From: Fuerstiella sp.
GTDB lineage: Bacteria; Planctomycetota; Planctomycetia; Planctomycetales; Planctomycetaceae
Assembly: GCA_022447225.1 (NCBI GenBank)
Contig: JAKVAZ010000014.1
Coordinates: 1 to 64,000, forward strand
Direction of reading: 5' to 3'
Length of the DNA stretch: 64,000 nucleotides
The position numbers and the translations under genes were made by a program. Positions 10,588 through 12,801 of the stretch are shown here, piece by piece. Every line of letters starts with the position of its first letter. Positions within the stretch are counted from its first letter, which is position 1. The notes below the pieces were generated by a model, which was given only the letters and a program-made list of their open reading frames with translations, had not been told where the DNA came from and searched no databases.

Positions 10588-11742
10588 TCACACGTTGCGA
10601 AGAATTCGGTGCCGGGCAATCATCCAGCGATCAGTTTCAGCTCCGTTCTGAATGACAATCGCTGATTCGTGGAGAGCGACCGTTGGGCAGATGTGGACCG
10701 GAAACGCAAACAGCAGGTCACCGGACGCATATTGATCCGCATGTTCCGTCGTGACGGTGAGATGTTCCTCGTTATGGATGATGGCCTGTGCATCCGGCAG
10801 GTCAGACAGTATGGCCCGAAAGTCGGCCGGTGGATCTGCGGCAATGGCTTTATGGCCGACATCCAGAGTCAACTGGCCGGGCACAGCACTGCTGACCACC
10901 CGGGTTGCCACCGCCGCGGCAACCTCAAATGACAGATCAGGACATTTGCGGCCGTAGCCCACGTCATGCAGGGTGCAGGTACCCGGACTCAGGCGGATTT
11001 GCGGATTTTCGAATTGAGCATAAACCGGAAAGGACGGGGTACCACCACACAGCAATTCAGGGACCGGCAGACCTGCCGACTCCAGCCGCTTGACCAGACT
11101 CTCCACTGGTTGCCATGCCTTTTGCACGGCCGCTGTTCGTTCATCGGGATCAGTCTGGTGGTGATGGCCGTCGTAGATGTGTAGTCCTGCCGGATGAACT
11201 CCGTTCAGACTTTGTACGAGTGCATACAGAGATTCTGCGTTTGGGGAATCCGGAGCGATTCCGGTTCGGTGCAGTCCCACATCAAGGTCAATCATAACTC
11301 CCAGTGAGATACCGGCAGCCGATGACTCGTCGGATAGCTGACGGATCGGCCCTTCTGCATCAGCCGTAATACTGATTTTTACCTGCGGATGCGCCGTGAC
11401 AACCCGCTGCAGCTGTGTCAGGGACGGACCAACCGGATTACCTGCGAGAACAACGTCTTCGGCCCCGGAGCGACAGAGCATGTCGACTTCAACAACAGTA
11501 GAAGCCTTGTGCTGAGTCACTCCCGCTGCCACAAGCCGCTGAGCAACTTGGATCATCTTGTGTGTCTTGCAGTGCGGCCTGAGTCGTTTCGCATCTCCGG
11601 CGATCTGCACGATACGTGCAATGTTGGCATCGATGCGTTCCGGCCACACCAGCAATGAGGGAGTGATCAAGTCACGGGCCGTGTCGGCATTCAGTTTGGG
11701 GGTCTGGACTAACACGGCCGGGAGTCTCCCAAAAACAGTCAC
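10588..11742 (-). CDS. PLP-dependent D-threonine aldolase / D-serine dehydratase family
   Basis: Fold-type III PLP enzyme of the DTA/DSD family, which cleaves D-3-hydroxy amino acids or dehydrates D-serine. It begins with the alanine-racemase-like barrel segment TPSLLVWPERIDANI and has the PLP lysine motif RPHCKTHK. Barrel strands such as GVMIDLDVGLHRTG follow. A C-terminal beta domain contains DVGHKA, EEHLTV and HICPT, the His/Cys pair that binds the divalent metal. GTG 11742 is preferred because GAGGTG (11754-11749) sits six bases upstream and the resulting 384 residues match the family. A GTG at 11814 would overlap infC by 14 bases but lacks a ribosome site. It lies directly downstream of infC and probably shares its transcript. 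Substrate preference is undetermined. Confidence 0.85.
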   Translation of the reverse strand: MTVFGRLPAVLVQTPKLNADTARDLITPSLLVWPERIDANIARIVQIAGDAKRLRPHCKTHKMIQVAQRLVAAGVTQHKASTVVEVDMLCRSGAEDVVLAGNPVGPSLTQLQRVVTAHPQVKISITADAEGPIRQLSDESSAAGISLGVMIDLDVGLHRTGIAPDSPNAESLYALVQSLNGVHPAGLHIYDGHHHQTDPDERTAAVQKAWQPVESLVKRLESAGLPVPELLCGGTPSFPVYAQFENPQIRLSPGTCTLHDVGYGRKCPDLSFEVAAAVATRVVSSAVPGQLTLDVGHKAIAADPPADFRAILSDLPDAQAIIHNEEHLTVTTEHADQYASGDLLFAFPVHICPTVALHESAIVIQNGAETDRWMIARHRILRNV

Positions 11743-11800
11743 ACGACCCACCTCGGGTAACCGGGATGGTGTGTGTTCAACGTTGGCAAAAACGATGCGG

Positions 11801-12346
11801 TTACTTTGCGGCACCCAGAGGTGACAGCATGACGGACATCATGCGACCGCTTTCCATCCGGGGCGACTGTTCCACGCTGGCAACATCTTCAAGTGACTTA
11901 ATGATTTCTTCAAGCATTTCACGGCCACGATCATGATGGGCATTTTCGCGACCACGGAACATGACGTTGATTTTCACTTTGTCACGACGTCCCAGGAATT
12001 CCCGAGCTTTGTTGACCTTTACGTCAATGTCGTGCTGACCTGTCTTGGCCCGCAGACGCAGCTGCTTGAGTTGTGTTTTGTGCTGTTTACCGCCACCAGT
12101 TTTCTTTTGCCGTTCGTACAGCACTTTACCGTAGTTCATGATACGGCATACCGGTGGTCGCGCATCGGGACTCACTTCAACCAGGTCGAGACCTTGTTCC
12201 TGTGAGATTTGCAGAGCCTGTTCTGTCTCCATTTCTCCCAGCATTTCCCCATCAGAATTGACGACCCGAATGGGCGAAATGCGAATTCGATCATTCATCC
12301 TGGGCACATCACGTTGTGGAACCGGGGTTGGACGAAAACGTTTAAT
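11801..12346 (-). CDS. infC: Translation initiation factor IF-3, ATT start
   Basis: IF-3 binds the 30S subunit, prevents premature 50S joining and proofreads start codons. The N-domain begins [12 protein letters not shown], then comes the linker helix with [14 protein letters not shown], and the C-domain has [25 protein letters not shown] and the typical ending. A start at ATT 12346 is best supported: AGGAGGT at 12357-12351 is five bases upstream, whereas the first GTG (12307) has no ribosome site. This gives 181 residues. A rare AUU start allows IF-3 to repress its own translation in other bacteria, so the same feedback is likely here. Unusually, the gene is not followed by rpmI-rplT but by a PLP-enzyme gene. 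Confidence 0.95.
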
Positions 12347-12357
12347 GGTTACCTCCT
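12344..12357 (-). promoter_or_regulatory. infC ribosome-binding site with ATT start codon
   Basis: On the minus strand AGGAGGT (12357-12351) is followed by AACC and the codon ATT (12346-12344). The ATT is in frame with the IF-3 domain through 13 stop-free codons. No ATG, GTG or TTG lies at proper spacing from this strong site. The pairing of a near-perfect Shine-Dalgarno sequence with a weak start codon is the signature of infC autoregulation. Confidence 0.85.
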
Positions 12358-12801
12358 CAAAACAACTTGGAAAAATCTACCTGTCAGCCGTGGATTTTCT
12401 TCAACAGTTCCTGGCCCGGGCTGAAGACGCACTCTACTGACCCAACATCACCGGATGAACCGTACAACCGGATCCGAAAACATATCCCGCTGAGCACAGC
12501 CGGCTGCTGATGGCTCAATGGTAACAACCGCAGATACTAAGAAAAAACTGAACCGTGATCCAAGTCTCTCATCGTCAGATTCGTCTTTGTTCTCTGGAAT
12601 TCTCCTAAGGTGGCGGCTGCAGTCCGGTCATTATGGATGTGGTTGTCACTTCTGTCTCCGGATGATACTCCGCTGACGGTTCAACTGTCTGGTGCCGGTC
12701 CTGACCGTAATGTGTGACTGATGTCCGCGTATCTGTGGCGAAACACCGGTTCAGGTGCCAAAATGAAGTACCACTGTACTGAAGGATACGGGTATACGGT
12801 T
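12347..12801. other. Divergent region between infC and acyl-CoA dehydrogenase
   Basis: Apart from the infC ribosome site there is no recognised gene or RNA. The region should contain the infC promoter and leader on the minus strand and the dehydrogenase promoter on the plus strand. The open frame 12721-12801, upstream of the proposed dehydrogenase start, has no family-like sequence. Confidence 0.45.

Follow-up and report, generated by a model that had tools for sequence, protein, structure and literature searches.

ATT as the probable start codon of infC in a planctomycete, and a survey of weak infC start codons that points to a candidate ACG class

In the planctomycete studied here, the infC gene very probably begins with ATT (position 12346), a poor start codon that its E. 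coli counterpart also has. We regard it as highly likely that the gene starts at this ATT and that the combination of a strong Shine-Dalgarno (SD) sequence with a poor codon lets its product, IF3, limit its own synthesis. Close relatives keep this arrangement, and the control gene rplT, by contrast, starts with ATG. All positions refer to the window, which is the whole 64-kb stretch of DNA that was analysed.

Results

The start region of infC

The gene product was identified as IF3 by its match to TIGR00168 (180.1 bits against a cut-off of 60). The features of the start region are the following.

12351..12357, minus strand: SD sequence AGGAGGT, complementary to CCTCC of the 16S 3'-end motif of the genome
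12344..12346, minus strand: ATT, putative infC start codon; SD pairing of -13.6 kcal/mol; conserved in L029, L025, L023 and L027
12308..12346, minus strand: 13 codons, the first being ATT and the last directly preceding the first GTG; they encode the basic N-terminal tail of IF3, with ATT read as Met
11801..12346, minus strand: infC coding sequence, 181 codons plus TAA (11803-11801); TIGR00168, Pfam IF3_C and IF3_N
12377..12379, minus strand: upstream in-frame stop TAG, which bounds the possible starts (from the sequence)
12305..12307, minus strand: GTG, rejected alternative start, without SD (-2.9 kcal/mol)
12296..12298, minus strand: ATG, rejected alternative start, Met of the conserved R-x-N motif, without SD (-3.8 kcal/mol)

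On the minus strand, AGGAGGT (12357-12351) is followed by aacc and then by ATT (12346-12344), from which a single frame stays open to the TAA. Four bases therefore intervene between the SD and the start codon; the original prediction gave five, which is correct only if the first base of ATT itself is counted. The in-frame extension of 13 codons that it placed ahead of the first GTG is confirmed, with ATT counted among the 13; counted in the same way, 16 codons lead up to ATG 12298, which lies in the same open frame. No ATG, GTG or TTG is found in frame between the TAG (12379-12377) and ATT 12346, and another ATT, located 5' of the SD, directly follows the TAG. The calculated pairing with the anti-SD is -13.6 kcal/mol for ATT 12346, versus -2.9 for GTG 12307 and -3.8 for ATG 12298. 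Hence, the region appears to contain a start codon outside the set of ATG, GTG and TTG at a productive distance from its SD (AGGAGGT-4-ATT). The exact sequence AGGAGGTNNNNATT occurs once in the window, compared with 0.07 copies expected from shuffles, and AGGAGGT alone is not enriched in the window (three found versus 5.35 expected). The genome of the window has a single copy of the typical 16S 3'-end motif that includes CCTCC. This motif was found in five of the six genomes searched; the exception was G062, a genome of the ACG class described below.

Conservation in the genus and the family

Both the SD and the ATT are kept in two relatives of the same genus (L029 and L025) and in two of the same family (L023 and L027), and in all four the ATT lies 17 codons ahead of the Asn of R-x-N. 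When the window is compared with L025, 34/39 bases of the 13-codon tail are identical, and 6/39 in the 39 nucleotides before the SD. The latter region is still identical at 34/39 positions between the window and L029, and this pair is therefore uninformative. In the comparison with L023 (8/39 before the SD), the tail has six non-synonymous and three synonymous changes, which indicates that it can change quickly.

Under the fixed rule given below, the 28 loci of the window's own family comprise 13 ATC, 6 ATT, 1 TTG and 1 ATG, and 7 received no call; ATH (ATT, ATC or ATA) thus accounts for 19/28 and NTG for 2/28, and two of the loci without a call (L006 and L022) show, by eye, ATC after a poor SD. 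The original prediction had named loss of the ATT and its extension in relatives as a result that would speak against it. Such loss is absent in the four nearest relatives, but in the family ATT or ATC is found in only these 19 of 28 loci.

Predicted start codons of infC in planctomycetes and other bacteria

The survey comprised 206 unique infC loci: 22 from named planctomycetes, 114 from other planctomycetes outside the ACG class, 13 from the ACG class and 57 from non-planctomycetes. A first set consisted of 29 infC loci from 30 genomes. For a wider set, 191 of the 195 genomes searched gave a match, from which 30 loci (one a duplicate) were taken together with 60 that were picked by hand, roughly in order of E-value, among the matches listed; in the latter, some rows were skipped and rows of the window's own family were added. 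The database set consisted of the best 80 of 583 confirmed stretches and is not a random sample. Three entries were dropped before counting, namely L122 (identical to L063), L001 (identical to the window) and L130, which equals L026 around the infC start (G005, of the same family as the window genome; JABURQ010000117.1). Two records, L143 and L180, have just "bacterium" as their title; L143 was placed among the 22 named planctomycetes because of its similarity. A fixed rule was applied to all loci: taking the best SD first, it called an in-frame codon out of a set of eight whose distance to the A of the SD was 6 to 13 bases. Applied to the two remaining frames, this rule gave the off-frame control.

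For planctomycetes outside the ACG class (136 loci), the rule called 54 ATC, 28 ATT and 2 ATA, which makes ATH the call in 84/136 loci of the phylum outside that class. The window and the four relatives nearest to it have ATT at this position, and in the family ATH makes up the 19/28 given above. The remaining loci of the 136 gave 10 TTG, 9 GTG and 6 ATG (25 NTG), 1 ACG and 26 without a call, and a weak infC start is therefore not universal. In the 272 off-frame tests of planctomycetes, ATH was called 17 times, ACG 17 times, NTG 15 times and CTG twice, and 221 tests gave no call. The 57 non-planctomycete loci, which come from the best 80 of 583 stretches, gave ATH in 44/57, namely 25 ATA, 11 ATC and 8 ATT, along with 4 CTG, 1 TTG and 8 without a call, against ATH in 8/114 off-frame tests; it should be noted that 15 of these 57 loci are Rhodobacteraceae-like by title and that all 15 have ATA, thereby contributing 15 of the 25 ATA. 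A count around the best SD that is neutral as to codon gave a similar contrast: ATH made up 68/283 in-frame versus 5/573 out-of-frame triplets in the 114 planctomycetes outside the ACG class that are not among the 22 named ones, and 47/139 versus 6/277 in the 57 other loci (again from the best 80 of 583). In this count, some of the results classed as "other" reflect a wrongly picked SD, for example in L011. Two calls of the fixed rule are doubtful: ATC in L053, where a GTG shared with relatives lies two codons earlier, and CTG in L151, where an ATT directly precedes it.

On a tree of IF3 (206 rows, quick search), the start states require at least 21 changes, and those between weak codons and NTG at least 14. 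Family f28 seems to have replaced a weak codon by GTG: nine of its loci (L032, L033, L036, L040, L048, L054, L078, L085 and L107) have a common GTG at a short SD spacing (D = 6), eight codons ahead of the Asn; by eye, L053 and L061 have it as well. Separately, a CTG occupies the SD-spaced position in L149, L179 and L185, titled Myxococcales, Chloroflexi and Roseomonas, respectively. The infC start region of L164 (Comamonas sp. KCTC 72670) is nearly the same as that of L169 (Myxococcus sp. CA023), and the title of the former record may be wrong.

A planctomycete class with ACG at the probable start site of infC

The class to which G125 belongs is represented by 14 genomes from three families, in 13 of which infC was located. 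In 12 of these 13 loci, the SD-spaced codon is ACG (D 9-11), and the SD itself is five to seven bases long; for the remaining locus, L121, the rule called TTG.

L045, L049, L058, L063, L120 and L123-L129: infC start regions with ACG

We consider it likely that this class starts infC with ACG, as may L051, a lone genome of another order in which ACG follows a nine-base SD with an ATT one codon before it. The class would then provide a candidate for a conserved natural ACG start in bacteria. The alternative, which applies to this class only and which we judge unlikely, is that the ACG is a conserved internal threonine codon and that translation starts elsewhere. Candidates for such a start are available: an NTG lies within 40 codons downstream in all 12 loci, and in ten of the 12 the frame contains at least one NTG, CTG or ATH upstream of the ACG, over 40 codons or as far as the stop. 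In eight of these ten, the nearest upstream candidate is at least nine codons away; of the other two, L126 has a GTG right after the stop, and in L128 a TTG precedes the ACG by two codons. In L049 and L129, the stretch from the upstream stop to the ACG contains no ATG, GTG, TTG, CTG or ATH at all. The 17 off-frame ACG calls among 272 tests in other planctomycetes mean that single ACG calls are weak. Within the class, on the other hand, ACG was called off-frame in only 1/26 tests, and the codon-neutral count found it in 11/33 in-frame versus 0/71 out-of-frame triplets. Codon usage also speaks against a threonine codon kept for its residue. In the first 32 residues, all 12 columns that are conserved in at least 11/12 sequences use two or more codons; the site itself is ACG in 12/12 of the rows compared, which were chosen for having it, and in 12/13 overall. 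The sample is small and related, since L058 and L063 are near-copies with 98% identical proteins, and in the tree of IF3 (quick search, 206 rows) it takes three changes, rather than one, to explain the ACG class, which does not come together in one branch; the starred branches are nevertheless compatible with a single origin.

The control gene rplT and the genomic context of infC

An ATG from eight codons before to four codons after the first residue of the model was accepted as the expected N-terminus of rplT. It was found in 28/28 loci of relatives and in 12/12 of the ACG class (40/40). The gene was not found in 2/30 relatives and 2/14 genomes of the ACG class, and L238, a second match in G006 below the cut-off, was excluded. 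Of the 27 relatives for which both genes were located, 15 have rplT no more than about 1.5 kb away from infC, as do 12/12 of the ACG class. The window genome has the two genes on different contigs, infC on C14 and rplT on C16 (C16:8244-8561), and they are also on separate contigs in both relatives of the same genus (G001 and G002).

Downstream of infC, an open reading frame on the minus strand (10588-11814), whose GTG overlaps the end of infC, is aldolase-like, with a weak match to the 3-hydroxy-D-aspartate aldolase BhcC (91.9 bits against a cut-off of 690). Upstream, a structured leader of the infC operon of the L20-binding type was considered and rejected: no Rfam leader was found, the only match in the window at gathering scores being a tRNA (905-978), and the local RNA fold of 12290-12420 is not unusual (z 0.78). 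A scan for promoters and terminators gave nothing clear, with two promoter-like sites on the minus strand compared with a mean of 0.9 in shuffles.

Discussion

The mechanism that we propose would work as follows. The strong SD would bring the 30S subunit to a codon that is paired poorly by fMet-tRNA, and IF3 bound to the 30S would destabilise such complexes. Because of this destabilisation, plentiful IF3 would repress its own mRNA, and scarce IF3 would permit its translation. For planctomycetes, we infer this autorepression by analogy with E. coli; the survey is consistent with an IF3-sensitive infC start, and the mechanism is plausible.

It is also conceivable, although quite unlikely in our opinion, that ATT is indeed the start codon and confers only a fixed lowering of expression, with no regulation by IF3. 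Such use of a weak AUU start is not without example, as, according to excerpts of two reports, it also limits E. coli pcnB (PMC9410913, PMC1780047). However, many groups have a weak codon in infC, whereas none was seen in rplT at the 40 loci examined. This pattern fits the sole gene whose product discriminates against such codons. That the ATT is untranslated, and that infC starts at GTG 12307 or ATG 12298 to give a protein without the basic tail, is very improbable: the frame has no NTG codon earlier than these two, the GTG being what an ORF listing limited to ATG, GTG and TTG yields, and ATG 12298 is retained in all four nearest relatives, but neither has an SD, the position of the GTG holds GTG only in L029 among those four (ATG in L025, GCG in L023 and CTG in L027), the ATG is replaced by Ile, Val or Leu in many other relatives, the tail evolves as coding sequence between the window and L025 (of its 13 codons, four differ synonymously and one non-synonymously), and the enrichment of ATH at SD spacing is confined to the infC frame. 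Because of its SD, its conservation and the lack of alternatives, ATT 12346 is the best start, and in this respect the original prediction of an ATT start after a strong SD is borne out.

For the window, the results correct the start site and restore the tail of IF3, and tools restricted to ATG, GTG and TTG will miss this ATT. More broadly, a survey of infC start codons constitutes an evolutionary test of autocontrol by IF3. If weakness is what is selected, the codon should drift among poor codons, and both the spread of ATT, ATC and ATA and the ACG class fit this. The occurrence of ATT, ATC, ATA and ACG at one site therefore suggests that selection keeps the infC start weak rather than preserving one spelling. 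If the ACG start is real, infC in that class would have moved from AUH to a mismatch at the middle base with weak initiation kept, and its conservation would be evidence that weakness itself is selected. Annotation limited to NTG would not see such a start. What is new in this work, and could surprise a specialist, is the ACG class, whose loci are not part of the window. Among the matches listed in our literature search, judged by titles and the first part of abstracts, we found no report of an ACG start of a bacterial infC, which is no proof of absence.

The AUU start of E. coli infC and the autocontrol by IF3 were reportedly described by Butler et al. in 1986 and 1987 and by Sacerdot et al. 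in 1996. The same profile that found infC in the window located it in E. coli K-12 with its known ATT after GGAGG. The two genes are alike in having ATT after a strong SD, AAA as the second codon and a similar tail before R-x-N, with 15 codons to the Asn in E. coli K-12 (where the motif is R-I-N) and 17 in the window. They differ in their surroundings: in E. coli, infC is flanked by thrS and by rpmI-rplT, whereas in the window genome rplT is on another contig and the aldolase-like reading frame follows infC. Autocontrol, moreover, is known for the E. coli gene and would be an extension by analogy for that of the window.

According to excerpts of the cited papers, E. coli infC starts with ATT, through which IF3 represses its own translation (PMC5472188); the Streptomyces gene starts with ATC, and its start is misannotated in most species of that genus (PMC5472188); and the start is AUU in B. 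subtilis (PMC1805508), AUA in S. aureus (PMC13009471) and ATT in Listeria (PMC13068326). The last four, as far as these excerpts go, represent the same gene and the same class of poor start codons in other phyla; the starts of S. aureus and Listeria are reported there to have been mapped, whereas that of the window is predicted from the sequence. Since poor infC starts are already known in several phyla, the case of the window is not surprising. The original prediction, which took the planctomycete case to show the trait at great distance, was overstated on this point, as the 44/57 non-planctomycete loci with ATH (from the best 80 of 583 stretches) also indicate; its choice of start and its IF3-sensitive reading agree with our survey. 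The infC gene of the window belongs to a widespread kind that is already known, with a poor start codon through which IF3 would limit its own synthesis.

With respect to the ACG class, in vitro work on the kinetics of IF3 has employed ACG, along with AUU, as an alternative initiation codon, as an excerpt of that study indicates (PMC8266586). The closest precedent that we found is sigR of Streptomyces, which, as described in the excerpt of PMC5472188, resembles the ACG class in having a start that is neither NTG nor AUH (GTC) and that is repressed by IF3. It differs from the ACG class in that another gene and another codon are involved and in that its control is not autogenous.
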